DNA from: a virus
Reading direction: 5' to 3' (one strand)
IMG/VR virus record: IMGVR_UViG_3300046167_000396
Span: 1-31,835 of that record
DNA length: 31,835 nucleotides
Made by a program: the position numbers and the translations under genes. The notes beneath the pieces were generated by a model that saw only the letters and a list, made by a program, of their open reading frames with translations, did no database searches and had not been told where the DNA came from. This document shows positions 1,287-18,836 of the stretch, piece after piece (positions within the stretch are counted from its first letter, which is position 1; every line of letters starts with the position of its first letter).

Positions 1287-1358
1287 CTTTTGGAGTAGCG
1301 TTGGTAACTTTGCTGCCTGCTTGGTGCTAGCTAAGCTCTATAGGTACAGGATAATAAC

Positions 1359-1583: not shown

Positions 1584-1861
1584 GAGACGTAAGGCAGACC
1601 CTGTACCTACACGTGAGATGACATTGGCTGACTGGGATGCAGCCGCTAAGCGTAGTGCAGATGAAGTAGCACAAGCACGTGAGATGGCTGGTATTACACG
1701 GTCACGCACTACAGATTATGCAGGTAACCCTCCTGCTGATCCCTAACTGGATTGACCGTCAAGCTATTGTACGGGATGATACTGGGTGGTGTAGCTATTA
1801 AGCAACCTGAGCCTATTGAGTATTATTGGTGAGCAACCACCTAAAGTACGTCCTGTAGGGC

Positions 1862-2710
1862 GTGAGGATATGCTCAGAAGGTGCTGGCTTAGCGTCACCT
1901 ATGGGTGGTCCTAACAGAGGTTCAGTACGTCCTGCTGAAGAAGTTACCGCCAACAATATCTTTGCTACGGTAACCAAAGCAGGTAAATCTTTGACTGTAG
2001 ACGAAACAACATCTTTAACTTCAGGCTTTAGTAGTCTTACAGAAGCTGAAGGCACAGACATTCACCTTGATGGTAGAGGATATGTCACTCTACCTTACGG
2101 TATTGTGCCTGATAAAAACAGCGTAAAGAAAGCAGATGGAACTACATTTGATCCTACAGGCTCTCACGGCCTTACGTCTTCAGGTCTTTCTGGAGTAGAT
2201 TACTCTGGAGCTACTAAGTTTGGTATCTCTAGAACGGACTACGACACCGATGAGGCCTTTGCTAAAGCTGTCTATGCAGAGTTTGGCAGTAGGACTGCTA
2301 CCAAATATGGGGAAGGCTTCGATGACCTTACAGAAGAAGCTAAACAGGCTGCATATGACATGGCTTGGAATGCAGGTATTGGTGCTGCATCTTGGTCTTC
2401 AGTAAAAACTATGCTTAAGGAAGCGAGTAAAGAGGGTGAAAAAAGTAAAGACTCTCTGATTGGCTTCACAACAAACTTTAAGTCAGGGACTGATTATCCT
2501 AGAGGGTTACTTAAGAGAAGACTTCAAACGTACAACCTAGTCGCAAATGAGGGCGAAGAAGCCTCTACTATTACTACTAGCGCATCTATGACTGATGGCG
2601 CTAGGACAGGTACAATTTACACTGTTAAGGCTGCTGATGGTACGGTACTTAAAACTTGGAGTAAACCAGACACAAATGAAGTTATTGGGGATCTAGAGGT
2701 ACCACAATAA
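1862..2710 (+). CDS. Virion-associated protein, C-terminal part with GH24-like lysozyme domain
   Basis: The nominal GTG start at 1862 only marks where the frame opens; the real gene begins at 1359. Residues about 55-232 of this piece resemble a T4-type lysozyme (GH24). LTEAEGTDIHLDGRGYVTL with PYGI near 60-81 matches the family pattern with catalytic Glu in an EG pair (here E63), followed by D-x-x-G and T-I-G-Y-G. DLTEEAKQAAYDMAWNAGIGA matches the LT-x-x-Q-x-D-A-L-x-S-F-x-x-N-x-G helix, and YPRGLLKRRLQTYNL matches the closing GLxxRRxxE helix. If correct, the protein cuts peptidoglycan, either as part of the virion at DNA entry or as the endolysin. Its place among virion genes favours the first. 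A TAATG overlap couples it to the next gene. Confidence 0.6.
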   Translation: MRICSEGAGLASPMGGPNRGSVRPAEEVTANNIFATVTKAGKSLTVDETTSLTSGFSSLTEAEGTDIHLDGRGYVTLPYGIVPDKNSVKKADGTTFDPTGSHGLTSSGLSGVDYSGATKFGISRTDYDTDEAFAKAVYAEFGSRTATKYGEGFDDLTEEAKQAAYDMAWNAGIGAASWSSVKTMLKEASKEGEKSKDSLIGFTTNFKSGTDYPRGLLKRRLQTYNLVANEGEEASTITTSASMTDGARTGTIYTVKAADGTVLKTWSKPDTNEVIGDLEVPQ

Positions 2711-3153
2711 TGCTAGGACTTCCACTTGAACTTGTAACTATGCTAGGCTCCACTGTTCTCGGTGGGGTCATGAGCATTTGGGGTCAGTCTATTAAGGCTA
2801 AAGAAGCTCAACAGAAGATGCTCATGGAAAGAGCTAACTTCAATGCACAACAAGTCAATACAGCACGTGAAGCGGGCAAGACAGACTCACACTTCGCTTG
2901 GACACGTAGACTGATTGCACTCTCAGCTGTATTCTCAATTATTGTCTTGCCAAAGATGGTAGCTGTGTGGTACCCTGAGGTCAGCGTCATTGTAGGTTAC
3001 ACGGAAGTCAAAGGTGGCTTCTTCGGCTGGCTCTTTGGAGGGCAAGAAGCTGTACAATGGAGAGCCGCACAAGGCTTCGTTATCACACCCCTAGACACAC
3101 ATATCGTATCCGCTATCGTAGGTCTGTACTTCGGTGCAGGCTTCACTAAATAA
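2710..3153 (+). CDS. Small membrane protein, possible holin (3TM-like)
   Basis: A 147-residue protein whose ATG overlaps the previous stop (TAATG). Hydrophobic segments lie near residues 3-22 (LPLELVTMLGSTVLGGVMSI), 65-87 (WTRRLIALSAVFSIIVLPKM) and 120-145 (end of the protein). A charged amphipathic helix of about 40 residues separates the first two. This layout, with a WxRR motif opening the middle segment, resembles the three-TM holin family first described from gene transfer agents in Rhodobacterales, but I cannot confirm it by sequence alone. It sits directly behind the lysozyme-like domain protein, which suits a holin. A virion membrane protein is the alternative. Confidence 0.6.
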   Translation: MLGLPLELVTMLGSTVLGGVMSIWGQSIKAKEAQQKMLMERANFNAQQVNTAREAGKTDSHFAWTRRLIALSAVFSIIVLPKMVAVWYPEVSVIVGYTEVKGGFFGWLFGGQEAVQWRAAQGFVITPLDTHIVSAIVGLYFGAGFTK

Positions 3154-3163
3154 GGTAAGACAC

Positions 3164-3724
3164 ATGGCAAGTCCACTATCTCAACCCATTCCTGGTCAAT
3201 CTCTGACTGATACACCTAAGGCTGCGCCATGGGAGCGTCCACCTGAGATGGTAGAGCCTCGTGATATCCTTGAGTACTACATCAAGAAGCTGGACGATGA
3301 TGAGCTCATGCAGGACTTGAGTGTTGTATTTGAGCTTGGTGGTGATCTTAAGACTGTAGTAAGCAGCCTGACGCTCATTGAAGCTCAGAAGGGTACACAT
3401 ACAGTAGATGCTGGTATGATAGTAGCTCCTATGGTTGCTACATACATTAAGCTGGCTATGAATGAGCTTGGCATTGAACCTAAAGAAACAAACCGTGACT
3501 ACAAGAAAGAAGCCACAGAACGTGAAGAGAAGCGTCTGCGTCTACTTATTGCTGATGCTATTGAGAAAGATGCAGCAGATGGTGGCACTTCTTCTGGCAT
3601 CCTGGAAGAGCTCTCAGGGCAAGAACCTGCTGAAGCACCTATGGAAGAACCCATGGAAGAGCCAGCAATGGAAACAGAACAACCAGAAGAGCCAATGGGC
3701 CTCATGTCGAAAGGTACAGTATAA
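3164..3724 (+). CDS. Conserved marine-phage protein with acidic tail, probably virion-associated
   Basis: The 186-residue product starts at 3164 rather than the upstream in-frame ATG at 3134, because AAGGTAAG lies just before 3164 and the earlier ATG falls inside the previous gene. The N-terminus contains PIPGQSLTDTP and PWERPPE, a Pro-rich signature I have seen in hypothetical proteins of several marine phages. It is followed by a helical region (EYYIKKLDDDELMQDL). The last 40 residues are very acidic and Pro/Met-rich, with repeats of EEPMEEPAME. Position in the late operon suggests a structural or assembly role, but no enzymatic motif is visible. The stop overlaps the next ATG (TAATG). Confidence 0.65.
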   Translation: MASPLSQPIPGQSLTDTPKAAPWERPPEMVEPRDILEYYIKKLDDDELMQDLSVVFELGGDLKTVVSSLTLIEAQKGTHTVDAGMIVAPMVATYIKLAMNELGIEPKETNRDYKKEATEREEKRLRLLIADAIEKDAADGGTSSGILEELSGQEPAEAPMEEPMEEPAMETEQPEEPMGLMSKGTV

Positions 3725-5712
3725 TGGGTATTGACTTCACGGCCTTTGCACAGGGCTTCCTCGAAGGTACTACAAAGCAAATCCTAGAGCGTAAAGCTAA
3801 GGCAGCTGATTATGAAGACAAGCAGCGAGAGCTAGCTGAGCGTAACAAGGGTATTGTAGCTAAGCGTAAGGAAGTTGTAGCTCGCTACTCTGGTCTAGCT
3901 AACCAAGCTAAGTCACTGGGTGCCTCAGATGAAATGGTCAGTGCTGCTCTAGCATCTGGGCCACAGGGTCTTGTTGATCTCACTAGCAACCTCCAAGGTG
4001 TCAAGGAGAAGATGGGCTCACGCTGGACACCTGAAGTAGCTAAGAACTATGTAGAGCTACCTGAGGGCTTCCAGATGCCTGACATGAACATCAATGAGCA
4101 GATCCAGGCTACGTTTGGCCTAGGTAAAGCTGAAGTAGGTTCAACTAAGGTTGACAAGGGTACGTTCTTTCAGCGTGGTATGGGCTATGGTGCTAAGGAT
4201 CGTGTACGTGCTGAGTTGGACAAAGAGGCATTCGACAATGGCTACTCCATCTTGGACATCAATGAACTGGCACAACAGTCTGAGTACCAAAGCTTGAGCT
4301 CAGGCTCCTTCATGAACTTCACTACACCTAAGGTCTTTAACCCTGAGGATTCTACTACTGAGTCAGCTAACATTAACCGCATGATGCAGCAGGCTACTGA
4401 GTCTGTAGCTTACCAAGAGCTTGAGCAGGAGTATAAGACCCTAGCCAATACAGCTGTGTTGCCAGGGTCTCCAGAGGAGGCAACCCGTGATGCACGTATG
4501 AAGGATATTCAAAGCGAACTACGTAGTATTCAGCGTGACTTCGTGTCTGACTTCGTGAAGGGCCGTGTAGATACATTCTCAGGTGGCGGCTACATGGAGA
4601 GCATGGGTAATATCATTGATGGCTTCCTAGGTACAGGTGCTTCTTCTGACCTACTTCGTGATACGTATGAAGAAGGTGCTGGTGTACCTGTAGGTGCCGT
4701 AGAGGACTTGACTGGCACAAAAGCTACAGCACCTGAAGTAGCTAAGAACATTGAGACTGCAGGTGGTATGGTAGAGACCTCACCTGATGCTATGGTTAAG
4801 ATGACACACGACTCATTGCCCTTTGATGGTGGTTCTGTAGCGTTTAAGACAGACGAGAATGGTAACCCTGTAGAGGCTACTTGGACTATGGATGGTGAAG
4901 AGTACACCACGGATAGTGCTGATGGCGTAGCTGCTGTATGGGATACTGTCACTGCTATCAAACCTAAGAGCGCTGGGCGTATGGTTGAGCCTGCTGATTG
5001 GGTCACCGAAGAGCAGTCAGACACAATGTCTAAGAAGGATCTTCAGGGTATGGGTCTCAAGGGTAGCCCACTAGGTAAACTCGTAGAGTTCCTACCTTCT
5101 GAGGAGCTTAAAGAGCAGGCTATCAAACAGATTGAGATTAAGCGTAATGCTGATCCTGAGGCTTGGTATAAAGTAGTAGTCCCTGGTCTTAACCTCAACC
5201 GTCCTATGAAGGTGAAAGGTGCAGACCTGTTCTTCATTCCTGACGATGCTCTTGTACGGGGTTACAACAACATCACTATCGACGAGTTTGGTATGGATGA
5301 TGACTTGCCTAAGAAGACTTACACTAAGCGGAAGATCCAAAAGACGTATGAGACATATGATGCCGACATGGGTGTATCAGTAGAAGGTGCAGACAAAGCA
5401 CAAGATACACCTGATGGTTCTGTACGTCCTGAGATGCGTCCTGAAGGCTTGGGAGCCAAGCCAGAGGAAGCACCAGCTAAGGAAGGTACAAAGGTAAGTG
5501 CAGATCAAGAAAAGGTAATCCAAACCTATGGCCGTGACATCATGAAGTTCATGGAAGAGGAAGGCTTTACTGGTGAGGACTCAGATGAGGAACTTGCACA
5601 AGGTCTTGCTGACTGGTATGCTGAGAATAGCGAAAAGCTAGACATCCCCTCATACCCACGTGATCAAGGCCCTATCATTAGCTTGATCAAGCGTTACCTC
5701 AAGAAGGACTAA
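3724..5712 (+). CDS. Large internal virion protein (putative ejection protein)
   Basis: A 662-residue protein coupled to the previous gene by TAATG. Residues 15-60 are strongly charged and helical (QILERKAKAADYEDKQRELA), probably coiled coil. The middle is Gly/Ser/Thr-rich, and the C-terminus has an acidic region (GFTGEDSDEELAQGLADWYA) before a basic end. I find no catalytic motif. Length, composition and location just before an even larger protein match the internal core/ejection proteins of T7-like podoviruses (positions of gp15 and gp16), but that analogy is based on gene order, not on sequence identity. The frame is intact throughout. Confidence 0.7.
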   Translation: MGIDFTAFAQGFLEGTTKQILERKAKAADYEDKQRELAERNKGIVAKRKEVVARYSGLANQAKSLGASDEMVSAALASGPQGLVDLTSNLQGVKEKMGSRWTPEVAKNYVELPEGFQMPDMNINEQIQATFGLGKAEVGSTKVDKGTFFQRGMGYGAKDRVRAELDKEAFDNGYSILDINELAQQSEYQSLSSGSFMNFTTPKVFNPEDSTTESANINRMMQQATESVAYQELEQEYKTLANTAVLPGSPEEATRDARMKDIQSELRSIQRDFVSDFVKGRVDTFSGGGYMESMGNIIDGFLGTGASSDLLRDTYEEGAGVPVGAVEDLTGTKATAPEVAKNIETAGGMVETSPDAMVKMTHDSLPFDGGSVAFKTDENGNPVEATWTMDGEEYTTDSADGVAAVWDTVTAIKPKSAGRMVEPADWVTEEQSDTMSKKDLQGMGLKGSPLGKLVEFLPSEELKEQAIKQIEIKRNADPEAWYKVVVPGLNLNRPMKVKGADLFFIPDDALVRGYNNITIDEFGMDDDLPKKTYTKRKIQKTYETYDADMGVSVEGADKAQDTPDGSVRPEMRPEGLGAKPEEAPAKEGTKVSADQEKVIQTYGRDIMKFMEEEGFTGEDSDEELAQGLADWYAENSEKLDIPSYPRDQGPIISLIKRYLKKD

Positions 5713-5715
5713 CCA

Positions 5716-7674
5716 ATGGCTACTAAGCTTACACTTGAACAGATCCAAGCACAGCTGGGTACTACAAAGGTACCTAGCCCCAGCGCTGTGACATCTATGC
5801 CTGAACAGATGGGTAGTACCTTCTCAGCTAAACCTAAAGCAGGTCCGACTAAGCTAAACAAGGATCAGATCCTGGCACAGCTAGGCAAAGGTAAAGTCGA
5901 TGAAGATGAATACATCTTTGACCCTACTGATGTCCTAAAGAAGGATGACCTTAAGACTGGTGACAGAGCTCGTCGTATCCGTGCACACATGGTAGATAGA
6001 CATGGTGTAGACTACAGGAAAGAGGCAGGCAAGTCTGATGCTGAGGTAGTTGAAGACTTCATTGACAATATGCGTTGGATGAACTCCAATACTGTATCTG
6101 TGGCAGGTGAGGTTCGTTTTATTCATGACGCAAAGGATGACGTCAAGGAGAGAGCCAAGGAAGCATACCAGATTTATGATCAGCTAGGCAACGTCTTCAC
6201 CAATGATGGCTTTACTGGTGCTGTAGATGGCATGAAGGATTACCTGTTTGCTGCTGTAGCTGACCCGTCTAACTACATTGGTCTTCTCACAGGTGGTATG
6301 GGTAAGGCTGCAGGTGTAGGCCTGACACAAGCTGGACGTGCTGCAGTCAAGAAAGCTGCTATTGAAGGCGGTAAGCAGGCACTTAAGAGTGGTGCTACAC
6401 AAGCTGCAGCTAAGGAAGCAGGCGAGAAAGCAGCTAAAGAGGCGGCTAAACGCTTTGCGGCTAACAACATTAAGACAGCACAATCTGCTACTATTCGTAG
6501 GGAAGCTGCTCGTCGTGAACGTGACTTGTTCCTGCTTGAAGCTAAGAAGAAAGCACAGCGTGATGTAGTACGTGCACAATCAGCTAAAGACGGTAAGAAG
6601 ATCCTTGCCGCTACAACAGCTGCTGATGCTGCCTTCGCTACACTGCATGATTATACTCTTCAAAGCACTCTCATTGAGGCTGGTGCTCAGGAGAACTACA
6701 GTGCCATGCAGACAGGCTTTAGCTCATTGCTAGGTGGTGTAGGTGGTCTAGCTCAGCTTGGTTTCGGTAAGTTTGCTGGTGCCTCAGGTCTCTCTGATGC
6801 TGACATTAAGCTTAACTTGGGTGCTAAGCGCTCTGCTGAGATAGATAAGCTTGATACAGCTGTTGCTGAGATGGCATCCAAGAACAAACGTGTAGCTATC
6901 GACCTCAAGGAAGAGCAAGCACGTGATGCTGCAGCTATCATTATGGAAAAGGCAGATGCATGGGCTGATAAGGTAAGCCGTGGTAAAGACGCCTACGACG
7001 ATGTACCTACGTCTGTATCTTTCATCAAAGAGGTTATGCTTGGTGAAGACAACAAGAGTGGTGTAGCTAAGTTCTTCAAGGATCAGGGCTTGGCTCTGCC
7101 TAAAGGCGCTACTGTATCTGACGTAATGACATCTATTGTATCTAAGCTACCACAAGATCAGCTTGATGCTATCAACAACAAGATCAAACCTATGGGTATT
7201 ACCCTGGGTGACACAACAGAGATCGGTCAGAGCTTAGGTGACTTGCTTGCTGTAGAGATCAGTAAAGGCGGTCAGGTACTCAATGTGATGTCTCAGGTTC
7301 GTAAGCAGCTTGATGCAGCTACAATCTATGGTCATGAAGTGATTGACGGTAGTGTTAAGGCTATTGATAACTTGGATGCTGAAGCAGCTAAGATCAAGAA
7401 AGCTAAGCTAGGTGAGTATGGACAGAACATCTGGCGTAGGATGCTTGTATCGTCTCCTGCCACTACAGCTGTCAACGTCATGGGCTTTGGGCAGTTCTAC
7501 GTAGGGCAATCGCTTGCTGACATCTTCTCAGGCACAGCTAATACTCTCTGGGGTGTAGCACAGGGCGGTAACATGACTAAGGGTGGCCGTGAAGCACTCC
7601 GTGTTGGACGTGTGTACAGACAGATCCAGTCACAGAAGATCCGTAACCTGCTTGACCCCTTACACTACGCATGA
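5716..7674 (+). CDS. Giant internal virion protein, N-terminal two thirds (frame-broken)
   Basis: This starts 3 nt after the previous stop. The N-terminus has two copies of a short helix motif, LTLEQIQAQLG at residues 6-16 and LNKDQILAQLGKGKV about 40 residues later. The region around residues 170-300 is Ala/Lys-rich and helical, next to a hydrophobic Gly-rich stretch (LLTGGMGKAAGVGL) that could insert into membranes. The frame ends with LLDPLHYA at 7674. Dropping one C from the CCCC run at 7656-7659 gives LLDPYTTHDAYMSFL and joins the frame that continues to 9313. The full product would be about 1,198 residues, in the size range of T7 gp16-like ejection proteins. Confidence 0.7.
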   Translation: MATKLTLEQIQAQLGTTKVPSPSAVTSMPEQMGSTFSAKPKAGPTKLNKDQILAQLGKGKVDEDEYIFDPTDVLKKDDLKTGDRARRIRAHMVDRHGVDYRKEAGKSDAEVVEDFIDNMRWMNSNTVSVAGEVRFIHDAKDDVKERAKEAYQIYDQLGNVFTNDGFTGAVDGMKDYLFAAVADPSNYIGLLTGGMGKAAGVGLTQAGRAAVKKAAIEGGKQALKSGATQAAAKEAGEKAAKEAAKRFAANNIKTAQSATIRREAARRERDLFLLEAKKKAQRDVVRAQSAKDGKKILAATTAADAAFATLHDYTLQSTLIEAGAQENYSAMQTGFSSLLGGVGGLAQLGFGKFAGASGLSDADIKLNLGAKRSAEIDKLDTAVAEMASKNKRVAIDLKEEQARDAAAIIMEKADAWADKVSRGKDAYDDVPTSVSFIKEVMLGEDNKSGVAKFFKDQGLALPKGATVSDVMTSIVSKLPQDQLDAINNKIKPMGITLGDTTEIGQSLGDLLAVEISKGGQVLNVMSQVRKQLDAATIYGHEVIDGSVKAIDNLDAEAAKIKKAKLGEYGQNIWRRMLVSSPATTAVNVMGFGQFYVGQSLADIFSGTANTLWGVAQGGNMTKGGREALRVGRVYRQIQSQKIRNLLDPLHYA

Positions 7675-9313
7675 CGCCTATATGTCATTCCTCAAGAACA
7701 ACGACGATGTAAGTAAGGTCTTGTTTGAGAACTTCACTGGTGGTGTACAGCGTAGCGCTAAACGTCACGGCATTGATGAAGAGGCTAAGTGGTTCGCTAA
7801 GACTGAGGCTGTAGTGGATGGTGCTAACCGTCTGACAGGTGTTAAGATACAGGACACGTTCACTAAGTCTCAAATGTTTATGACTGAGATGGATAAGTGG
7901 CTGCGTCTCAACAAGAACCGTACGCTCTCTGATGTACTTGAGAAGGGTGACGTAGACATTATCGACAATGAAGTGATCGGCAATGCCCTGGATACTACAC
8001 TAAAATCTGTATTCTCTAAAGACTATACTACAGATGATCAACTCCTAGCTAATGCAGCTATGCAGGTCGAGAAGTTCTCAAACATCCCTGTAATCGGTAC
8101 CATCCTACCTTTTGGTCGCTTCTTCAACAACACACTCGCTACTGCATACCAGTGGAGTGTAGGTGGTGGCGTACAGATGGCTGGTGCTATGTACAACAAA
8201 GCCATTAAGGGTGCTCCTGTTCCTGAAACTGCTACTGAAGCATTCTCTCGTAGCTTGGTAGGTCTTACCAGCCTCCGTCTAGCTATGGAGTTTGACGATG
8301 AACGTAGAAAGCAGGGTGTAGCATACAACATGATTGATGCAGGTGGTGGTAACACTATTGATGCACGTAACATGTTCCCCGTATCGCTGTGGCTTGCTGT
8401 AGGTCGTGCAGGTAACCTTGCCCGTAATGACGAGATGGTACCACAGGAGCTCATTGAAGACATTGCTGCTCAGCTTGCTGTAGGACAGTTCGCTAAAGAC
8501 GTACAGTTCGGCAATGATCTATACAACGTGTTTGATACTCTGTTTAACGGCGAGCCAGGTGCACGTGGTGCTACTATGGATGCTGTATACAAACAGGGTG
8601 GTAACATCTTGGCTGGCTTCACACGTCCTATTGATGCGGTTAACCGTATGGTAGGTTTCATCAATGACACAGATGCTGCACGTGATGCTCGTCAACAGAC
8701 TGGTGTTAGCGCTGGGGTTATGGGTGCCACGAAGTACGTAGACAACATCATTGAAATCTTCACAGATAAGCTAGACAGTGTGACAGGTGAAGAACTTCGT
8801 GTAGCTACACGTGAGGGCTCTCTCAAGGATGCTAACCCTATCCTGCGTATCATGGGTATTACAATGATGCCAGCTCGTACAGCTACAGAGAAAGCCTATA
8901 GCATGGCAGAGATGCACCCCTGGAAAGCCAATGAGCGTAGTCAGCTCCCTGGTTATGACAAGGTGTTCAATGAGTTGATCCAACCTCAGCTTGAGAGTTC
9001 ATTCCTAAACCTGGTTGAAACAGACAAGTTTAAGTCTGCATCTGTAGCCCAGCGCCGTGAAATGCTTGGTGCTTGGAAGACTGAATTGTCTAAAGGCCTC
9101 CGTGACTACATGAGTGCCTCGGGTGATACAGGACTAGATGCTGTACGCAGGAAGGCTATTACATCTGTGAACAAGAACGTCAAAGATGAAGCGTTAAAGT
9201 ATATGAAAGACTCATATGGATTCACAGGTAGCATCAAAGAAATGACTTGGGAAGAGGTGCAGCTGTTCTTGACTATCTCTGATTACTACAAAGAGATCAC
9301 TGATCTAAAGTAA
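7658..9313 (+). CDS. Giant internal virion protein, C-terminal part
   Basis: This continues the protein begun at 5716 after an extra C in the run at 7656-7659. The open frame reaches back to 7583, but the sense reading changes over at about 7658, so 7583-7657 in this frame is a shadow. About 550 residues follow, alpha-helical and mixed in charge, with hydrophobic stretches such as IPVIGTILPFGRFFNN and SVGGGVQMAGAMY. No enzyme motif is seen. A role in DNA ejection is inferred from size and from being the last late gene before the terminator. The stop at 9311-9313 is followed within 20 nt by the hairpin at 9332. Confidence 0.7.
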   Translation, partial: PYTTHDAYMSFLKNNDDVSKVLFENFTGGVQRSAKRHGIDEEAKWFAKTEAVVDGANRLTGVKIQDTFTKSQMFMTEMDKWLRLNKNRTLSDVLEKGDVDIIDNEVIGNALDTTLKSVFSKDYTTDDQLLANAAMQVEKFSNIPVIGTILPFGRFFNNTLATAYQWSVGGGVQMAGAMYNKAIKGAPVPETATEAFSRSLVGLTSLRLAMEFDDERRKQGVAYNMIDAGGGNTIDARNMFPVSLWLAVGRAGNLARNDEMVPQELIEDIAAQLAVGQFAKDVQFGNDLYNVFDTLFNGEPGARGATMDAVYKQGGNILAGFTRPIDAVNRMVGFINDTDAARDARQQTGVSAGVMGATKYVDNIIEIFTDKLDSVTGEELRVATREGSLKDANPILRIMGITMMPARTATEKAYSMAEMHPWKANERSQLPGYDKVFNELIQPQLESSFLNLVETDKFKSASVAQRREMLGAWKTELSKGLRDYMSASGDTGLDAVRRKAITSVNKNVKDEALKYMKDSYGFTGSIKEMTWEEVQLFLTISDYYKEITDLK

Positions 9314-9331
9314 GACCAAGTACATAAACAC

Positions 9332-9366
9332 AAAAGAGGGGGTCACAATTAAGTGGCCCCCTTTCT
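9332..9366. terminator. Bidirectional hairpin terminator between convergent operons
   Basis: GGGGGTCAC (9338-9346) pairs with GTGGCCCCC (9353-9361) as a nine-pair stem with one wobble and loop AATTAA. CAAAAGA precedes it and TTTCT follows, so both strands have a U-tract-like end. It separates the rightward virion genes, ending at 9313, from the leftward gene ending at 9389. Confidence 0.85.
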
Positions 9367-9388
9367 AGTTGTTACCCTATGTAGGTAC

Positions 9389-9592
9389 TTACTTTATACC
9401 GTAGTTCTTTACGGCTTCTTTTGTGAGTAGCTCAAAGAGTTGCAGATACTTTAGTGCATCTTCTCTCTCTGTTGAGCCATGCACGTTGTCCATGACGAAC
9501 ACGATTAGGTCTTCTGTAGCATTAAACAATGCCTCGTTAAACTGCTTACGCTTACCCATGATAAAGTCCTCTGCTTCTTGTTCTATGCCCAT
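9389..9592 (-). CDS. Small helical protein with its own promoter; weak resemblance to Acb2-type anti-CBASS proteins
   Basis: A 67-residue protein predicted to be almost all helix: a long first helix up to DLIVFVMDNVHG, a turn with STERED, then ALKYLQLFELLTKEAVKNYG. GAGG lies 8 nt before the ATG. The pattern of a hydrophobic helix, a short REdAL-type turn and an amphipathic helix ending in Ala/Val resembles small phage cyclic-nucleotide sponges of the Acb2 family. Similarity is by eye only, and the size is shorter than I would expect. It is the last leftward gene and, unlike its neighbours, is not translationally coupled. It has a near-consensus sigma70 promoter at 9632-9660 and is closed by the terminator at 9332. 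Confidence 0.7.
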   Translation of the reverse strand: MGIEQEAEDFIMGKRKQFNEALFNATEDLIVFVMDNVHGSTEREDALKYLQLFELLTKEAVKNYGIK

Positions 9593-9631
9593 AAGTTTAG
9601 CCTCATGTTGTCTTTGTTAAGCTGCATGAGT

Positions 9632-9660
9632 ACTATACTACAGTATATTCTAGGAGTCAA
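9632..9660 (-). promoter_or_regulatory. Near-consensus sigma70 promoter for the gene at 9389-9592
   Basis: On the minus strand TTGACT (9660-9655) and TATAGT (9637-9632) are separated by exactly 17 nt. Each hexamer differs from consensus at one position. The predicted start near 9625 gives a leader of about 33 nt. The -35 box lies within the last codons of the upstream gene. This is the best host-type promoter I found in the window. Confidence 0.75.
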
Positions 9661-10111
9661 GCTCTTTGATGAGGCGATCTAAGTACCAACGTGCTTTCTT
9701 CAAGTCCTCAGTACCATTGCCCTTGTAACGCCAGCGATGTAGATACTTCTTGGCATTACCCTCTAGGTAACCCTGAAACATTTGGGGGTCCATATTGTCC
9801 TTCATGTAGACGATACACTCAATCTCACCATTACCGTAATGGCTAGGGCTGTTCACTGCGTCTTGACGTACAGAAATAAACCCTGCTTCTTCAATAGGTT
9901 CCTTACGCCATTCAAGATAGTCATGACGGATACGATTAAGTTCTCCTCGGTCAAGATCAGAGGTATCGTCATACTGTTCTTCCCAGTATTCTGAACCTTG
10001 GGGTGTCTCGCTCCACCAAAAGGCTCCCGTAAGCGCTGAATTATCCCCACTTATCGCAGCTTCAAGATGTGATAGATTAACGTTCATATCTTCAAAGTTA
10101 TATTTAGCCAT
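9650..10111 (-). CDS. DUF3310 domain protein
   Basis: The 153-residue product starts at 10111, where ATG overlaps the PhoH stop (TAATG) behind AGGAGGGG; the longer frame to 10153 would run inside phoH. The first 85 residues are unassigned. The C-terminal 65 residues match the small phage domain DUF3310: VNSPSHYGNGEIECIVYM, then GYLEGNAKKYLHRWRYKGN, then EDLKKARWYLDRLI. That domain is widespread in phages of many hosts. I recall it being labelled as a possible nucleotide kinase, without firm evidence. It is fully coupled to phoH. Confidence 0.85.
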   Translation of the reverse strand: MAKYNFEDMNVNLSHLEAAISGDNSALTGAFWWSETPQGSEYWEEQYDDTSDLDRGELNRIRHDYLEWRKEPIEEAGFISVRQDAVNSPSHYGNGEIECIVYMKDNMDPQMFQGYLEGNAKKYLHRWRYKGNGTEDLKKARWYLDRLIKELDS

Positions 10112-10824
10112 TACAGCCCCTCCTTCATAAATACTTTGACCCATTCCTTGCATATACCACTTCGTACGATGTCGTCAACACCAAACTCAACTACAGGTAC
10201 ATCCAACAAATGCTTCTTCGCTAGGTGTATGATCTTAGCTAGACCTGATGCACCCTTCAAGTCAGACTGTTGTACGTCACCGTTAAGCACAATGGTACTG
10301 CCTTCGCCTACACGTGTAAGCAACATCTTGATCTCAGCAATCTCAATGTTCTGTGCCTCGTCTACAATGATGAAAGCACCCTCAAAGCTACGACCACGCA
10401 TGAGAGCCAGTGTAGCTACCTCAATATTGCCATTCTTAATAGCTGTATCTACTGCGCCTTTGCCTAGGTGTTTAACTAGTACGTCCAGCACAGGTAAGGC
10501 CCAGGGTTGTGCTTTCTCTTCTAGTGTGCCTGGCAGGAACCCAATATCTTTACCTACAGCTACGTGAGGGCGAGTAATGACAATCTTGTCAATCTCTTTA
10601 AGTGTGTACATGTCAGCTGCACAGGTAGCGGTAACGTAAGTCTTACCTGTACCTGCAGGACCAAGGATCAGAACTTGTTGGCTACCCTTGATAGCATCAA
10701 TCAATTCCTTCTGCTTCTCTGTCCTTGGCGTAATCCCAGAGGTTTCCTTGGCTTGGGCGTTCTTGTAGTTTGTCTTTCGGCGTGTCCGTGTCAGCTTCTT
10801 GGGCGGCTCTAGGTCCATAGTCAT
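10111..10824 (-). CDS. phoH: PhoH-like ATPase
   Basis: A 237-residue P-loop protein with Walker A GPAGTGKT at 55-62 and Walker B FIIVDEAQN at 151-159, plus the PhoH signature ITRPHVAVGKDIGFLPG after the first helix. PhoH-like proteins are cytoplasmic ATPases common in marine phages; bacterial relatives are linked to phosphate starvation, ribosome or RNA metabolism, but the phage role is unresolved. Two adjacent start codons exist (10824 and 10818). The first 43 codons overlap the end of the upstream GIY-YIG gene in another frame. The conserved part begins at ITPRTEKQ (residue 31), so a later start cannot be excluded, but the basic N-terminal extension looks like that of other phage PhoH proteins. 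Confidence 0.93.
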   Translation of the reverse strand: MTMDLEPPKKLTRTRRKTNYKNAQAKETSGITPRTEKQKELIDAIKGSQQVLILGPAGTGKTYVTATCAADMYTLKEIDKIVITRPHVAVGKDIGFLPGTLEEKAQPWALPVLDVLVKHLGKGAVDTAIKNGNIEVATLALMRGRSFEGAFIIVDEAQNIEIAEIKMLLTRVGEGSTIVLNGDVQQSDLKGASGLAKIIHLAKKHLLDVPVVEFGVDDIVRSGICKEWVKVFMKEGL

Positions 10825-11347
10825 CTAAGTTATCCAATATCTCTGTTGCTTTTTCTACAGTAAGTTTAAACCATTCTCCTGCAACCTCTTCTGATAATAC
10901 AGTTGCTCTTGCATGGGCTTGTTGCTCAGACTTTCTTCTGTGATTAGACCAAACACTATGCTCTAATACGTAGTCACGATGAGGGCTGCTTGTCTGATAG
11001 CCATTAAGCCTATCTTCCGCATCAATAGCCATACCAATCTTTACCCAGCCAGGCCAAGCTTGATTGGTAATAACGTATACATGACCCTCCTTTACGTTGC
11101 TAGCACCCGATTGCTCAAAGAGAGCATCCCCTATGTTCTTGTATTTACCAGGCTTAAACATACTATAACGAGGGTCACTTTTAGGTACGTACTTACCGTT
11201 TATGTATAATCTCTGAGGGCCGTTTTTAGAGTTAAACCTATTACGATAACATTCTTTACAAATGCGCTGGTTGCGTTTCTTGAAGGAAGGCATCCATGTA
11301 GCATCATTTAGTTCTATACCGCATTTATAGCAAGGGCAAACACTCAT
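10697..11347 (-). CDS. GIY-YIG family endonuclease (T5orf172/MUG113-like) with N-terminal zinc ribbon
   Basis: I choose the start at 11347 (MSVCPCYKCG) because TAAGGATACAGAC precedes it; the ATG at 11371 would lie inside the tRNA. The 216-residue product has a CYKC...CKEC zinc ribbon in the first 35 residues. A GIY-YIG-like domain follows: HVYVITNQAWPGWVKIGMA, DRLNGYQTSSPHRDYVLE, E in RKSEQQAHA, and GEWF. These contain the expected Tyr, Arg and Glu of that nuclease family. Proteins of this type in phages are usually homing endonucleases or mobile nucleases. The last 43 codons overlap phoH in another frame, and the gene begins 16 nt past the 3' end of tRNA-Arg, so it looks inserted. Confidence 0.85.
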   Translation of the reverse strand: MSVCPCYKCGIELNDATWMPSFKKRNQRICKECYRNRFNSKNGPQRLYINGKYVPKSDPRYSMFKPGKYKNIGDALFEQSGASNVKEGHVYVITNQAWPGWVKIGMAIDAEDRLNGYQTSSPHRDYVLEHSVWSNHRRKSEQQAHARATVLSEEVAGEWFKLTVEKATEILDNLDDYGPRAAQEADTDTPKDKLQERPSQGNLWDYAKDREAEGID

Positions 11348-11363
11348 GTCTGTATCCTTATGT

Positions 11364-11440
11364 TGGCCCACCCCGCAGGACTCGAACCTGCAACCTACTG
11401 CTTAGAAGGCAGTTGCTCTATCCTGTTGAGCTAGGGGCGG
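11364..11440 (-). tRNA. tRNA-Arg (anticodon UCU)
   Basis: The minus strand reads from 11440. The acceptor CCGCCCC pairs with GGGGTGG (one G-U), the D stem is GCTC/GAGC, and the anticodon stem ACTGC/GCAGT encloses the loop CTTCTAA with anticodon TCT. The T arm is GCAGG-TTCGAGT-CCTGC, then discriminator G and an encoded CCA. All four stems are intact over 77 nt. It would read AGA/AGG, which are rare in high-GC alphaproteobacterial hosts. It lies between glutaredoxin and the GIY-YIG gene in the leftward cluster. Confidence 0.96.
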
Positions 11441-11450
11441 TGTTATAATA

Positions 11451-11678
11451 TTACACCTCTAAGTAGGCTTTAAGCTCCGTATACCCCCCAATGAAGTTTA
11501 GCTCGCTGTCAAACAGCTGAGGCACTGTGTTGGTCTGCTTGTGTGCAGATACAAAGGCCTTGTTGTTAGGCTCCTGTACGTCATACACCGCTACTGTGTG
11601 ACCACCTGCCTTAAGTAACCCCAGCGCTGCAGTACAGTACTTACAGTTATCTTGAGATAACATTACGTAGTGTGCCAT
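11451..11678 (-). CDS. Glutaredoxin
   Basis: A 75-residue thioredoxin-fold protein of normal glutaredoxin length. It has the active-site pair C12-K-Y-C15, the TVPQLF cis-proline motif near 51 and IGGYTEL near 63 that contact glutathione or the substrate. AAGGAG sits 8 nt before the ATG. In phages carrying a ribonucleotide reductase, a glutaredoxin next to it commonly re-reduces the enzyme, and here it is the next gene downstream of the class II RNR. Its stop overlaps a GTGTTATAATATTACAC dyad that runs into the tRNA. Confidence 0.93.
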   Translation of the reverse strand: MAHYVMLSQDNCKYCTAALGLLKAGGHTVAVYDVQEPNNKAFVSAHKQTNTVPQLFDSELNFIGGYTELKAYLEV

Positions 11679-11681
11679 GTG

Positions 11682-11698
11682 TTCTCCTTATGTGTTAA
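11682..11698 (-). repeat. 17-nt leader repeat TTAACACATAAGGAGAA, copy 1
   Basis: The same 17 nt occur exactly at 29595-29579, again just upstream of a start codon. The AAGGAG part is a ribosome-binding site. The shared upstream TTAACACAT is not explained by that. Confidence 0.6.
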
Positions 11699-11732
11699 GC
11701 GAGCAGTTTATACACTTGCTCAGGTGTTAGTC

Positions 11733-13631
11733 TTACGTCAAGTCAACGATCTCACAGCTATCACCAGAACAAGCTAGTGTCTGACTTCCTGCTGTGTTGT
11801 CTTCCTGTTCATACTCTGAAAGCTTACTCCAGTCAATACCATCAGGCATACATGACAGCAGCATCTCGTAGTCTGACTTGCCTACCTCTTGGTATGGTGC
11901 TTGCTGGTAGGTATGCTCATTGTAAGGCAAGAAGCTTACACCTGACATCTCATCGAAGTGCTTATACACAAACGATCCTACTTCAAACCACTCATCCTTC
12001 TTGACGTTGATAGTGACAGAAGGTTTGTGTTCACACCAAGCACGTTGATAAGCCAACCACATTTCAAGCTGTTCAATAGCTGACATATCAGCCGTGACTA
12101 CAGCATTCGCAGGGGCCTTCATAGGGAAGCTGAACACTGTAGTAGAGTCAGGCTTCATTACGTCAGGCTCACTAGGAATGCCTTGGTCCTTCATGAACTG
12201 TGTCAGTGGGTCTTTGTTGTCACCTCGTACCGTGCGGATATAGTAAGGGCTATGACGTGCGTGAATACCAGAAGCGGAATCAACCAGCTGTGATACAGTA
12301 CCAGAAGGCTTGACGCATGTAATAGCAGCAGACACAGGGATACCAAGGCGATCAGCCCACTCAACATTCGTAGCAACAGCAACCTCCTTCAAGCGTCCAA
12401 GAGTAGCCTCCAAGCCTGCATTCTTTGTAGTCATAAGTGGGTTGTCCATGATGCCTGTCAGTGACACACCAAGCAACCGTTCTTCTTCTGTATTCTTCTG
12501 CCAAATCTTACGGAGGTAGGGGAACTTCGTGTAGCTAGACTGGATTGTACCAAGGATTGTAGCTAGCTTTACTTTAGCTTCCAGTGTCTCAATGGTGTCA
12601 GTGGCACGTACGACTACTTCTGTGAGGTTACAGAACTGGTATGGACGAAGGATAATCTCTGAGCATGGGTTAGTGCCAAACTCGAAGTTAGGGTCACGGC
12701 GTCCATTCTTCTTAGCTTGAGCTACAGATGCTTGACGGTTAAAGATGCCACGCTCACCTGAGCCACTCTCTACAAGTGACATCCACTCACGCATAAAGGA
12801 TACAGCATCGGGCTTCTCAGTGTAGCTCACAGAGTTGTTAGCCAAGGCACGTTGTGGATCATTCTCCCACCATGAGCCTGACTTAGCGTGACGCATACGG
12901 TCATCACTCAGGTTAGATAGAGAGATCATAGCACTGCGGCGTACACCACCTACCACTACGACTTCACCAATCTTACACATGATGTCGTGTACTTCAAGTG
13001 AGCTAAGCTTACGGTGCTGTGCTTCTTTGAAGGTACGAATGACGAAGTTAAACAGGTCAACCAGGGGCGCTGGGCCTGATGCACGACCACCGAATGTCTT
13101 AAGCTTAGCACCTGCAGGGCGTACACGGCTCACGTCCCACTTAGGAATCTCACCACTATACAGGAGTGCAATCACTTGACGCAGAGACTTTGCCCAGCCT
13201 TCCTTGCTGTCCTTGACGACGACAGTTGTGTCACTCTCAAACAACTCAGGGATCTCTGGGAGCTTGGAGACGAACTGACGTTCAACAGAGAAGCCAACAC
13301 CTGTACCACAGAGCAAGATGAACATAGCCTCATCGAAGGACTTAGGGTCATCTACGGGTAGGTAGCTGCAGTTGTAACCTGCTGTGTTATCACGATCAAG
13401 CGCTGGGCCTGCTGTCATGAGTGCTCGCATGGATGGCATGACATTGAGGTCCATGATGGCTGTCTCAAGTGCGTCTGCTGTTGAGGCATCAACCTTAGAG
13501 TGAACCAAGTTATCCATGTAGCGACTTACTGTCTCAACCCATGTCTCACGGCGTCCCTCTTTGTCTAGCCATCGTGCATAACGTGATGTATGGATGAAGG
13601 ATTGGTAGTCTGTCGGTAGGTAGTTGCTCAT
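11733..13631 (-). CDS. nrdJ: Adenosylcobalamin-dependent (class II) ribonucleoside-triphosphate reductase, monomeric type
   Basis: The 632-residue enzyme makes dNTPs from NTPs using a B12 radical, so it depends on cobalamin from the host. Cysteines match the Lactobacillus leichmannii-type enzyme: C88 and C334 as the redox pair, C323 in NPCSEIIL as the thiyl-radical residue with E325, and a C-terminal shuttle pair C621/C626 in CSGDSCEI. The spacings 323-334 and 621-626 equal those in the family. It starts in an ATGA overlap with the MazG-like gene and is followed by glutaredoxin. After the TAA the next frame reads DVRLTPEQVYKLLA-stop (to 11695), so a one-base deletion may have trimmed a short C-terminal tail. 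Confidence 0.95.
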   Translation of the reverse strand: MSNYLPTDYQSFIHTSRYARWLDKEGRRETWVETVSRYMDNLVHSKVDASTADALETAIMDLNVMPSMRALMTAGPALDRDNTAGYNCSYLPVDDPKSFDEAMFILLCGTGVGFSVERQFVSKLPEIPELFESDTTVVVKDSKEGWAKSLRQVIALLYSGEIPKWDVSRVRPAGAKLKTFGGRASGPAPLVDLFNFVIRTFKEAQHRKLSSLEVHDIMCKIGEVVVVGGVRRSAMISLSNLSDDRMRHAKSGSWWENDPQRALANNSVSYTEKPDAVSFMREWMSLVESGSGERGIFNRQASVAQAKKNGRRDPNFEFGTNPCSEIILRPYQFCNLTEVVVRATDTIETLEAKVKLATILGTIQSSYTKFPYLRKIWQKNTEEERLLGVSLTGIMDNPLMTTKNAGLEATLGRLKEVAVATNVEWADRLGIPVSAAITCVKPSGTVSQLVDSASGIHARHSPYYIRTVRGDNKDPLTQFMKDQGIPSEPDVMKPDSTTVFSFPMKAPANAVVTADMSAIEQLEMWLAYQRAWCEHKPSVTINVKKDEWFEVGSFVYKHFDEMSGVSFLPYNEHTYQQAPYQEVGKSDYEMLLSCMPDGIDWSKLSEYEQEDNTAGSQTLACSGDSCEIVDLT

Positions 13632-14095
13632 TGTGCTTCCTCTTGTTTCGTTAATGCCAGATCAGATAGGTCTGGTGCTTTGTAGTCTGGGCCCTTAAGG
13701 ACTTTACCGTCTTCACGTCGAATGGGTTTACCATCTTCGCCTAGCTTACTCATGTTACTTTCATGTACACGCTTGAATGCTTCATTGACTCGTGGTGCAC
13801 CATACTCTTCAATTACAGGTAGTAATGCTTTATTGACTCCATCAAAGAAGTTAGCCCATTTCTCTGCCTCTTCATCAGGGTAGAGGTTCATTAAAGCGTC
13901 AGCCTGCGTTAGGTAGAAGCCATTGAGTACATAACATACGTCAGCTACTTCTTTGAGGTGTGCAGCTGAACCAAAAGACTCAGCCTGCATCTCTGCATAT
14001 TCTTCTTCAATCAGCTTAAGCCACAAGCGAGGATCAAGAGAACCACCGAATGCTTTAATGAACTGCTTTAACTCAATCCCTGTACCTATATTCAT
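13628..14095 (-). CDS. MazG-like nucleotide pyrophosphohydrolase
   Basis: A 155-residue, mainly helical protein. The paired acidic motifs EEEYAEM (30-36) and KEVADVCYVLNGF (48-60) form the ExxE...ExxD metal site of all-alpha NTP pyrophosphatases such as MazG and PRA-PH. A downstream block AFKRVHESNMSKLG and the KGPDYKAPDL end are typical of phage members. The likely reaction is hydrolysis of NTPs or dNTPs to monophosphates, which would adjust or clean the nucleotide pool or lower alarmones. The TGA overlaps the RNR start, so the two are made together, which supports a nucleotide-metabolism role. Confidence 0.85.
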   Translation of the reverse strand: MNIGTGIELKQFIKAFGGSLDPRLWLKLIEEEYAEMQAESFGSAAHLKEVADVCYVLNGFYLTQADALMNLYPDEEAEKWANFFDGVNKALLPVIEEYGAPRVNEAFKRVHESNMSKLGEDGKPIRREDGKVLKGPDYKAPDLSDLALTKQEEAQ

Positions 14096-14265
14096 GTATC
14101 TCTCTCTTCTGTTTTCACGTTGGTGACCTTAACATCGTCTACATCGTAGAACAAGTCGTGGATCAAGTCAGTTACATCTTCTGCGTGATCTGCTTCCGAT
14201 GATGATAGTATGTTGTTGTTCTTGTCGATCTTAAGCATGAAGCTTACTGCGAACTCTTTAGACAT
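14092..14265 (-). CDS. Small acidic phage protein, 57 aa
   Basis: A short gene beginning in a TAATG overlap with the gene at 14265-14561 and ending in an ATGA overlap with the MazG-like gene. That makes it the missing link in a fully coupled string. The product starts MSKEFAVSFMLKIDKNNN and then becomes acidic, with a likely beta-alpha fold. Function is unknown. The double coupling is the main evidence that it is real. Confidence 0.75.
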   Translation of the reverse strand: MSKEFAVSFMLKIDKNNNILSSSEADHAEDVTDLIHDLFYDVDDVKVTNVKTEERDT

Positions 14266-14561
14266 TAGGCAGACCCCATTGTTTTGGAGTTGAAGCTCAA
14301 GACGTTGCTTTCACCCAGTCCTAGCATCTCGTCACGATACTTAACTAGATCATCAAACAGCTCATCCTTGTCTTCAACATATGATAGGAATACGGATAGC
14401 ATGGTGATCAGATCAATCATAATACCAAGAGATTGATCATCTAGTGATGACTCTGTAGGGAAGACTACGGAAGTGCCTAGATCACCTGTGACTGCACCGT
14501 TGTCTTCTACTTCCATCTCAAACACTAAGGCTATTTGGTTTTCTTTGAGCGTGTATCCCAT
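14265..14561 (-). CDS. Hypothetical phage protein, 98 aa
   Basis: An acidic protein starting MGYTLKENQIALVFEME, with predicted strands first and then a long hydrophobic helix (LGIMIDLITMLSVFLSYVED) that is probably a packed core helix rather than a membrane span. It starts inside the end of the endonuclease I gene (31-nt overlap) and ends in TAATG with the next small gene. I do not recognise the family. Confidence 0.7.
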   Translation of the reverse strand: MGYTLKENQIALVFEMEVEDNGAVTGDLGTSVVFPTESSLDDQSLGIMIDLITMLSVFLSYVEDKDELFDDLVKYRDEMLGLGESNVLSFNSKTMGSA

Positions 14562-15004
14562 GTCTCATGCTTCTCCTGTTTGTACAGTATCTTAGTCTCA
14601 GTACGTGGTTTCCCTGGCTCTGTCAACCATTCATCAGGTACAACTTTATGTGACCACTTGAAGCCATACTTGTCAGCCCACATAGCGTAGGTTGTCTTCG
14701 ACCCCTTGTTGATCTTAGCTGCTGCATTGTAGAATACAAACCTGATGTCTAGGTCAGGGTGTTGAGCCCTTACGTGTAGATGCTTGCGCCTGTCAGCTGG
14801 CTCAAACAAACCCTTGTACTCAATGATGATGCCATTGTCTAACTCGAAGTCAGGCGTGTATGTTCGGTACTGTAAGTCCTCCCACTCTACCTTTAGCTTC
14901 TCGTATCTGACTTCCTTCTGGACCTTAGACAACAGCTCAGAAAGTTTCCCCTCTGAGCCGCTGCGGTAAGCCCTCTTGTTGTGTCTGCGCTGGGCTTTAG
15001 CCAT
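14531..15004 (-). CDS. T7 endonuclease I-type Holliday junction resolvase
   Basis: The 157-residue protein follows the T7 gp3 pattern closely: RSGSEGKL near 14-21, YTPDFELDNGIIIEYKGLFE at 49-68, RRKHLHVRAQHPDLDIRFVF at 72-91, KGSKTTY, and a terminal PDEWL. Catalytic residues correspond as E18, D52, E62 and K64, all present. The enzyme cuts branched DNA, resolving replication and recombination intermediates and helping degrade host DNA. It starts directly after the exonuclease gene behind GAGGGTTAAC. The neighbouring exonuclease and polymerase fit a T7-like recombination and replication set. Confidence 0.95.
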   Translation of the reverse strand: MAKAQRRHNKRAYRSGSEGKLSELLSKVQKEVRYEKLKVEWEDLQYRTYTPDFELDNGIIIEYKGLFEPADRRKHLHVRAQHPDLDIRFVFYNAAAKINKGSKTTYAMWADKYGFKWSHKVVPDEWLTEPGKPRTETKILYKQEKHETWDTRSKKTK

Positions 15005-15005
15005 G

Positions 15006-15860
15006 TTAACCCTCCACTAGCAACACATAGTCCACCATAGGCTTGACCTTAGCTGCTGATACCTTTGACTCCATGGTCTGTAGTGTAGGCCAGCACTTAT
15101 GCTTGTAGGAGCAGAAGCCACACTCAGTGTTCAGCTTGAGGTTACCACTAGGTTTCTTACGGTATGTCTCAGGCTCAGGTGCATAACATCTCTCGAAAGG
15201 CATGTCATTGTCTAGATACTCAGTGAGGGCTTCAATGTCTTTAAGCTTAGCCTCAGCATCTACATTGGATGCATCGACATACTTGAACTCACCGTTGCCC
15301 TTATTGACTACCCACCAGCCGCCTACACCTTTGTCAGCTGCAGTAGCGTAACCTACAAGCTGAGCCACATAGCCGAAGCTGTCATGGTTGTTCAGGGTGT
15401 CGAAGTCCTCAAACTTATTGTTGTAGGACCAGGGTGAAGCAGACTTGATGTCGTCTACCTTGTCGTCGAGCACCATGTCATACTCACCCTTGATCTTCTT
15501 ACCATTAGGCAACTCAAGTGTGACATAATCACTGTCTTGGAACTCTACACCCGCAGCACGTAGGACACCTTTGAATACTGCCTCAGTGATATCACCAATA
15601 AGCATATTCAGCAGGAAGTGTGGTGGGAAGGGTGTCTTATCTTCTGAGTCATTCTTGTCGAACCAAAGCTGACACTTAGGTCGTCCAATGTTTGACATAC
15701 GAAGTCGGAACTCATCCCGTGGACCACTATCGAACTGCTTAAACAATGCAGCCTTAACATCGGAGGCGACCTTATCAGCCACCTCCTCTGTCATAGTAGT
15801 CTCACCAGCAAGAGCTTGTTGCAAGAATGCAAATACCTTTAGCTCTGCTGGATGATTCAT
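15006..15860 (-). CDS. Cas4/RecB-like PD-(D/E)XK exonuclease with predicted Fe-S cluster
   Basis: The 284-residue nuclease shows RecB-family motifs in order: GDITE near 89, YDMVLDD near 127, DDIKS at 136-140 with catalytic D and K, and the QLVGY (167-171) motif. Four cysteines, C63 before the core and C247, C250, C256 after it (ECGFCSYKHKC), are spaced as in Cas4 and AddB, which hold a 4Fe-4S cluster. The gene lies between a probable ssDNA-binding protein and endonuclease I, where T7-like phages keep their 5'-3' exonuclease (gp6). A role in recombination, primer removal or host DNA degradation follows from that. Coupled by ATGA to the upstream gene. Confidence 0.88.
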   Translation of the reverse strand: MNHPAELKVFAFLQQALAGETTMTEEVADKVASDVKAALFKQFDSGPRDEFRLRMSNIGRPKCQLWFDKNDSEDKTPFPPHFLLNMLIGDITEAVFKGVLRAAGVEFQDSDYVTLELPNGKKIKGEYDMVLDDKVDDIKSASPWSYNNKFEDFDTLNNHDSFGYVAQLVGYATAADKGVGGWWVVNKGNGEFKYVDASNVDAEAKLKDIEALTEYLDNDMPFERCYAPEPETYRKKPSGNLKLNTECGFCSYKHKCWPTLQTMESKVSAAKVKPMVDYVLLVEG

Positions 15861-16728
15861 TCGTCTGCACCTTGGATGTCTACGAGACCAGCGACCAGAT
15901 CAGCATCATCATCTGAGATACCCTCTACGTTAGCTTCTGACCACTTACGCAGGATGTAACCGTTGACGTACTCAATGTACTCCATGAAGTTACGGAGCAT
16001 CTCTTGGTCCTCAGACTTGAGCTCTACTGTAGTACCTACCTCAGTAGTGATAACACCGTAGCTTACACCTGTCGGCGTAGTCTTGACCTCGTAGCCCAGG
16101 GTGATGTTACCCATGATCGGCAGTACATTCTTGCGCTTGAGGCCGTTGAATGCATCGTCGATAGCTTTGAGGCTGTCACGGTTCTTGATCTCAAACACAA
16201 ATGGTACATCCACTACTTCGATGTCGAGCGGCTCACCATTAGAATCCATAGGCTTCTCAACTGTGATAAGACCCATGACGATACGTACACGTGTGATACT
16301 ACGCATAAGCTCCTTGGTTGACTCAGGCAGGGCATTGAAGTCCTTTACGTAACCTGATGGACGACCGAGGTTGAAGCGACCTGTAGTATCCTTGAGGTCT
16401 TGGTTGAGGTTAGTAGCCATGACTGTCTTCTGTGTCATGTTAGCATTTGCGTCCCAGCGCTGGAACTGCTGACGTACAGCAAAGACACGGACGCTTACGC
16501 CCTCAGCTACGACTTCAGTACCGTCTGGCAGTGTAATGCCATAGACACCAACGCCGACAACTTCTGTCTTGACCTTCTTGCCAGCTACTTCGATTTCACC
16601 CATTACAGCTTTCTGGATTTGACGCACACGTGCGAATGTCAGGTCCGCCACCACCAGATGTAGTGATGCCCATCATCTCTTCCATCGGACATGTTGTTGT
16701 AGTCGGGGGTAGTCAGTTCGTTGCTCAT
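15857..16728 (-). CDS. Putative ssDNA-binding/recombination protein (two frame breaks near the N-terminus)
   Basis: The intact frame begins at 16654 (MVADLTFARV), but coding sense reaches back to an ATG at 16728 behind AAAAGGAATATCTT. Removing one G near 16682 and one G near 16661 gives a continuous N-terminus MSNELTTPDYNN, then MSDEEMMGITTSGGADLTFA. The whole protein would be about 289 residues, with mixed beta strands and an acidic C-terminus (ISDDDADLVAGLVDIQGADE). An acidic tail and a place between polymerase and exonuclease are typical of phage ssDNA-binding proteins such as T7 gp2.5. No OB-fold signature is clear, so the function is inferred from context. ATGA overlap with the exonuclease. 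Confidence 0.7.
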
Positions 16729-16771
16729 AAGATATTCCTTTTCTTGAGCTTCAGGAAGGGTAGTTATAGCA

Positions 16772-18820: not shown

Positions 18821-18836
18821 CGTCTCTCCTATTCAG

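Follow-up and report, generated by a model that had tools for sequence, protein, structure and literature searches.

A small helical hairpin gene with a probable promoter of its own in the early arm of a CRP-2-like marine phage

A gene for a 67-residue helical protein closes one arm of a marine virus fragment, with a near-consensus sigma70-type promoter sequence in front of it and a terminator behind it. This layout raises the question of whether the gene is an independently expressed anti-defence gene, as an earlier note on this DNA had proposed on the strength of the promoter and a weak resemblance to Acb2. Acb2 is a homohexamer that binds cyclic di- and trinucleotides, and the Acb2/Tad1 superfamily is known for signal sponges. 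We refer to the gene and its relatives as the hairpin gene and the hairpin family, and to the whole stretch of DNA that was analysed (31.8 kb) as the window.

Genomic setting of the hairpin gene

In the window, the structural arm (1-9313) runs rightward and the early arm of ~21 kb runs leftward. The early arm encodes proteins of replication and nucleotide metabolism, including class II ribonucleotide reductase, ThyX, DNA polymerase, PhoH and glutaredoxin. The gene order is that of the roseophages CRP-2, CRP-207 and CRP-603, and the window phage is a CRP-2-like, HMO-2011-type roseophage. CRP-2 has been classed as an HMO-2011-type phage (PMC6918029), and phages of this type rank with the most abundant marine viruses (PMC6918029, PMC9038755). 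The features discussed below are collected in Table 1.

Table 1. Features of the window and their coordinates.
Feature	Position	Strand	Basis or remark
Bidirectional intrinsic terminator between early (leftward) and structural (rightward) arms	9335..9364	.	12 pairs, then T-run
Hairpin gene, 67 aa, ATG start	9389..9592	-	ORF, homologues, purifying selection, AlphaFold2
GAGG, Shine-Dalgarno-like	9601..9604	-	Read from sequence; 8 nt before ATG
-10 hexamer TATAGT	9632..9637	-	Sequence; 17-nt spacer; transcription start predicted near 9625
-35 hexamer TTGACT	9655..9660	-	Sequence; overlaps end of upstream DUF3310 gene; recurs in L015, L048-L050
DUF3310-domain gene, adjoining hairpin gene upstream	9650..10153	-	Pfam DUF3310 5.3e-19
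phoH-like gene	10111..10824	-	PHROG 170, E 2.7e-81; usual upstream neighbour of hairpin family by synteny
tRNA-Arg(TCT)	11364-11440	-	Early arm, between glutaredoxin and T5orf172-domain gene; overlaps the start annotated for the T5orf172-domain ORF
Four consecutive small leftward genes	22196-23290	-	Repeated 45-nt boundary in common
Tyrosine integrase gene	25919-26881	-	Phage_integrase E 1e-17; within replication arm

Two of these features lie apart from the hairpin gene. The position of the tyrosine integrase gene in the replication arm suggests that the window phage may be temperate. The boundary that recurs in the cluster of small genes consists of an end ...AELKG(Q/E)... and then an MSD or MTD start. 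Its repeats are spaced 340, 310 and 400 nt, and two of the encoded proteins have further internal repeats in common. This cluster looks like a set of duplicated small genes.

The hairpin gene is the last gene of the leftward early arm, and its ORF, with its ATG start, is as the earlier note described. Family alignments are free of gaps at 34-45% identity, and pN lies far below pS among close relatives (for example 0.059 versus 0.315, and 0.138 versus 0.463). Because of these two observations, the coding reading can be regarded as secure.

We identified relatives of the hairpin protein in 3 isolate phages and at 41 IMG/VR loci. The family was found through the three isolate phages rather than through the window protein alone, with which a single-sequence search of IMG/VR and GTDB genomes returned no matches. 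In these phages and loci the gene occupies one and the same place: it follows phoH, in some cases with an endonuclease gene inserted between them, and precedes the central terminator. It is usually coupled, either to phoH or to a different small gene. The immediate upstream neighbour varies and can be phoH, an endonuclease VII-like gene, an HNH gene or a DUF3310 gene. In the window, the DUF3310 gene stands between phoH and the hairpin gene; ICBM2 also has a DUF3310 gene (gp29) directly after phoH. The orthologues in the Roseobacter phages, CRP2_gp43, CRP207_gp38 and CRP603_gp43 (34-36% identity), are annotated only as hypothetical and resemble the window gene in sequence and position. They differ from it in a 4-nt overlap with the preceding phoH or endonuclease VII-like gene, and they are without a comparable promoter.

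Comparison of these loci indicates an accessory slot, of which the hairpin family is the resident in the CRP-2-like branch. Cobaviruses with ~76% identical PhoH carry other small genes or none in the slot. We read the slot genes of SIO1, ICBM1, P12053L, CRP-6 and ICBM2 as possible homologues and found them unrelated. CRP-13 gp34 (L006:3703-3954) was rejected as well. It occupies the same slot and has only the N-terminal motif of the family, LEQEAxxF, in common with it, being otherwise a different protein of 83 aa. LEQEAxxF could thus be an independent module.

The strong terminator that had been noticed behind the gene is real, but it is a bidirectional element that the two genome arms share. 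Its folding z-score is -4.8 on the plus strand and -1.9 on the minus strand. The same kind of terminator follows the homologues of the hairpin gene, and the equivalent element of phages ICBM1 and ICBM2 is annotated as a bidirectional terminator. The arms of cobaviruses likewise converge on a bidirectional terminator (PMC6775973).

Relation to Acb2 and Tad1

Structure prediction and a structural search, which had been suggested as a check, gave a hairpin whose BFVD neighbours are mostly annotated as Acb2/Tad1. AlphaFold2 models the window protein as a two-helix hairpin (helices 3-36 and 41-64, pLDDT 93.6), and the model of the L015 homologue has a pLDDT of 94.0. No beta strand is predicted in either model. 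The top BFVD match is an orthologue of the same size (E 1.3e-4), and the ranks after it are mostly annotated as Acb2/Tad1 hairpin, with probabilities of 0.97-1.00 but E-values of at least 0.15. The PDB search gave no significant match to the window or L015 model; weak hits to Tad1 chains recur with the L015 model (26% identity, 42 columns, E ~5).

The sequence evidence comes through the homologues. The window protein matches no Pfam family, including Acb2_Tad1_hairpin (Pfam accession PF24729), and has one weak match among PHROGs (20147, E 0.0021). PF24729 matches 15 of the 26 family members at sub-threshold scores (best E 2.5e-4). The cut-off of 27 bits is reached by no member, the best being L048 (21.6) and L015 (20.0). 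In scans of whole contigs, these sub-threshold matches fall at the family gene, and no such match occurs in related phages that lack it. L048 also matches PHROG 717 (E 7.6e-4, compared with 2.3e-32 for T4 Acb2 itself), and L048 and L015 have PHROGs 717 and/or 1454 in common with T4 Acb2.

Other comparisons gave weaker signals. When one family profile was searched against all PDB sequences, T4 Acb2 (Vs.4, 7uq2) was the joint best match, at a non-significant E of 0.71. A profile-profile alignment with Acb2 spans 22 columns (E 0.00095, probability 22); of 60 permutations that preserved hydrophobicity, one reached an equal score. Searches of NCBIfam and PADLOC returned scattered weak matches only, and a narrow Acb2 HMM run against all window ORFs showed no preference for the hairpin gene.

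Acb2 (anti-CBASS 2; T4 Vs.4, PaMx33-type p26; Pfam accession PF24729) and the hairpin protein are both small phage proteins with a long helical hairpin, and both are encoded in early or metabolic gene neighbourhoods. Most relatives also have the helix-2 pattern A...L.EA.MWA..A (window residues 41-62 aligned to T4 61-82). The tryptophan of this pattern, W56, is present in 14 of 18 dereplicated members and is lost in the window protein (L56). Acb2 is longer, at 88-94 aa versus 67 aa, and has an N-terminal KGY segment and a short first helix, both of which the hairpin family lacks. In Tad1 (Thoeris anti-defence 1), the same Pfam domain forms a helical hairpin at the C terminus. Unlike the window protein, for which no sheet is predicted, Tad1 has an N-terminal antiparallel beta-sheet in addition to two long C-terminal helices (PMC12043709).

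Taken together, the PF24729 and PHROG matches of the relatives, the predicted hairpin and its BFVD neighbours make it likely that the hairpin family belongs to the Acb2/Tad1 hairpin superfamily. The resemblance to Acb2 that the earlier note perceived thus survives as distant membership that is seen through homologues; it is not visible from the window protein alone, and the ligand residues are absent.

We took the data on ligand residues of T4 Acb2 from two papers on Panoptes (PMC12657218, PMC12657230). In T4 Acb2, Y8 is required for cyclic-dinucleotide binding, and the mutations T68M and F82C lower binding (PMC12657230, PMC12657218). At the positions aligned to T68 and F82 the window protein has K48 and K62, and both columns are variable in the family. 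The N-terminal KGY segment and a counterpart of Y8 are absent from all family members, which start directly at the long helix. Since these residues and the KGY segment are missing, the sequence does not predict that cyclic dinucleotides bind in the known pocket. The genuine Acb2-type set, which includes one protein from relatives of the window phage, keeps the pattern KG(E)Y...IK...T.

The invariant residues of the hairpin family are E4, E6, A7, F18, N36, G65 and K67. In the model, E4/E6/A7 and G65/K67 are located at the two chain ends, which meet at the open end of the hairpin. These conserved ends argue for a pocket of different chemistry at the same end, an argument that falls short of proof.

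Two contigs (L055 and L069) hold both a genuine Acb2-type gene and a hairpin-family gene. The hairpin gene is therefore not a plain substitute for Acb2. If the hairpin protein is a sponge, this co-occurrence suggests that its ligand probably differs from that of genuine Acb2. In both, the genuine Acb2-type gene is flanked by the genes for ribonucleotide reductase and glutaredoxin. On L055 it is at L055:1969-2226 (PF24729 E 1.3e-12), and the hairpin-family gene is behind phoH (L055:3989-4168).

The promoter region

The promoter TTGACT-17-TATAGT (9660-9632, minus strand) had been correctly read. It matches the consensus at 10 of 12 positions, is one of the two best sites in positions 1-20000 and sits in a 57-nt gap before the ATG with its GAGG site. 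The string itself is not above chance, with 4 sites of 10/12 in the window versus 8.2 expected from dinucleotide shuffles. The probability of such a site within 120 nt before the start of the hairpin gene is 0.021, which is weak taken alone. The further claim that all other leftward genes are coupled and lack such promoters is not strictly correct. Seven other leftward gaps of 54-130 nt exist, but the genes that follow them have promoter scores of only 7-8, which leaves the hairpin gene as the sole uncoupled gene with a site of this quality.

Comparison with relatives is more informative. Among homologues that overlap or abut the upstream gene (hereafter coupled), 18 of 19 score 7-9 and one scores 10. 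Both other uncoupled lineages have the promoter TTGACA-18-TATACT (11/12). In L015 it lies in a 60-nt gap (P 0.0023 in 120 nt). In L048-L050 the gap is 106 nt (P 0.0003 in 120 nt for L048), and an HNH-type gene intervenes upstream of the hairpin gene in L048. Because the two other uncoupled lineages have better sites and nearly all coupled homologues score only 7-9, the private sigma70-type promoter of the hairpin gene is probably real. Its credibility comes from its position in the gap before the start and its recurrence in relatives, and not from the count alone. Outside the hexamers, the promoter regions of the window, L015 and L048-L050 are mutually dissimilar, which suggests that the three promoters arose independently. 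We infer that insertion uncoupled the hairpin gene and that a private promoter was then selected.

The L015 promoter also has a perfect 7-bp dyad, CCTGTTA-tactg-TAACAGG (L015:3508-3526), that overlaps the -10 box (P ~0.01 in shuffles). The dyad over the window -10 box is 6 bp (P 0.17), and L048 has no dyad over its -10 box. A dyad in this position is possibly an operator for a repressor.

The promoter could instead be a chance match, with read-through from the early operon as the sole source of expression of the hairpin gene. Sites of 10/12 are indeed rarer in the window than in shuffles, no terminator divides the hairpin gene from the upstream gene and the rest of the operon, and most relatives are coupled. 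We nonetheless consider this unlikely, given that better sites recur in both other uncoupled lineages and in sequence unlike that of the window. The layout of promoter, gene and terminator would also fit a recently acquired moron, to which the gene had been likened. This origin is very improbable: the gene is conserved and vertically syntenic across the group, since CRP-2, CRP-207, CRP-603 and 41 contigs have orthologues in the equivalent position, and the terminator is part of the genome architecture, shared by both arms. The accompanying proposal of expression independent of the phage programme is not supported either, as the gene closes the early arm in conserved synteny and mostly overlaps or abuts the preceding gene in relatives.

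Possible functions

We tentatively read the hairpin protein as a divergent, minimal Acb2/Tad1 hairpin protein in an early-arm accessory slot that may act as an oligomeric sponge for an immune nucleotide; this reading falls somewhat short of an even chance. An anti-defence role is plausible but unproven, and is suggested by the membership in a superfamily of sponges, early expression, the accessory slot and purifying selection.

In most relatives, the hairpin protein would be made by translational coupling to the preceding gene. In the window, L015 and L048-L050, insertion or divergence would have separated the hairpin gene from its neighbour, and the gene would have its own near-consensus sigma70 promoter. 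Host RNA polymerase could then transcribe it at once after entry, and not only after read-through of the early arm. A Pfam RNA_pol-family RNA polymerase was not found in the window or 6 relatives, in a search without a positive control. The protein would most likely be an oligomer in which packed hairpins form pockets at their open ends (E4, E6 and A7 with G65 and K67). Such a pocket may hold a nucleotide-type immune signal and keep it from its effector. We infer the oligomer, the ligand, the anti-defence role and the activity of the promoter.

That the protein belongs to the hairpin superfamily but has lost the binding of immune nucleotides is a serious if less probable possibility. The gene would then encode a small early protein that forms oligomers and serves a different purpose, for instance as an accessory to PhoH or to the nucleotide-metabolism genes with which it is coupled, or as a modulator of a host protein. 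This would fit the absence of the canonical ligand residues and the conservation of residues elsewhere, the coupling to phoH in many relatives and the two contigs that also carry a genuine Acb2-type gene. However, the neighbour is not fixed, since an endonuclease VII-like, HNH or DUF3310 gene may stand in between, and the cobaviruses with a similar PhoH are without the hairpin gene. A partnership with PhoH is therefore not general, and a private promoter would be unexpected for an obligate operon partner. The protein could also be unrelated to Acb2 and Tad1. It would then be a small helical hairpin of separate origin, with a second helix that acquired the pattern A...L.EA.MWA..A by convergence. 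The fold is simple, every sequence match is below curated cut-offs and a permuted profile can score equally. Matches in 15 of 26 members, two PHROGs in common with T4 Acb2 and structural neighbours in BFVD dominated by the Acb2/Tad1 family make such convergence improbable.

The sponge reading can be extended to a tail-less branch of the Acb2/Tad1 superfamily that is widespread in HMO-2011-type marine phages. Its E4/E6/A7 and G65/K67 pocket would sequester an immune nucleotide distinct from the signals known from CBASS, Thoeris and Panoptes, and acquisition of a host promoter could turn coupled expression of the gene into stand-alone immediate-early expression. As a whole, this extension is speculative and rather unlikely to hold.

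In the literature searched, we found no report of an anti-defence gene in HMO-2011-type phages. The promoter is present in three uncoupled lineages and essentially absent from coupled ones, a comparative sign that early expression of the hairpin gene has been selected. A conserved hairpin protein that lacks the known ligand residues would mean either that sponges extend further in sequence than the known binding residues imply, or that the hairpin fold has other uses.
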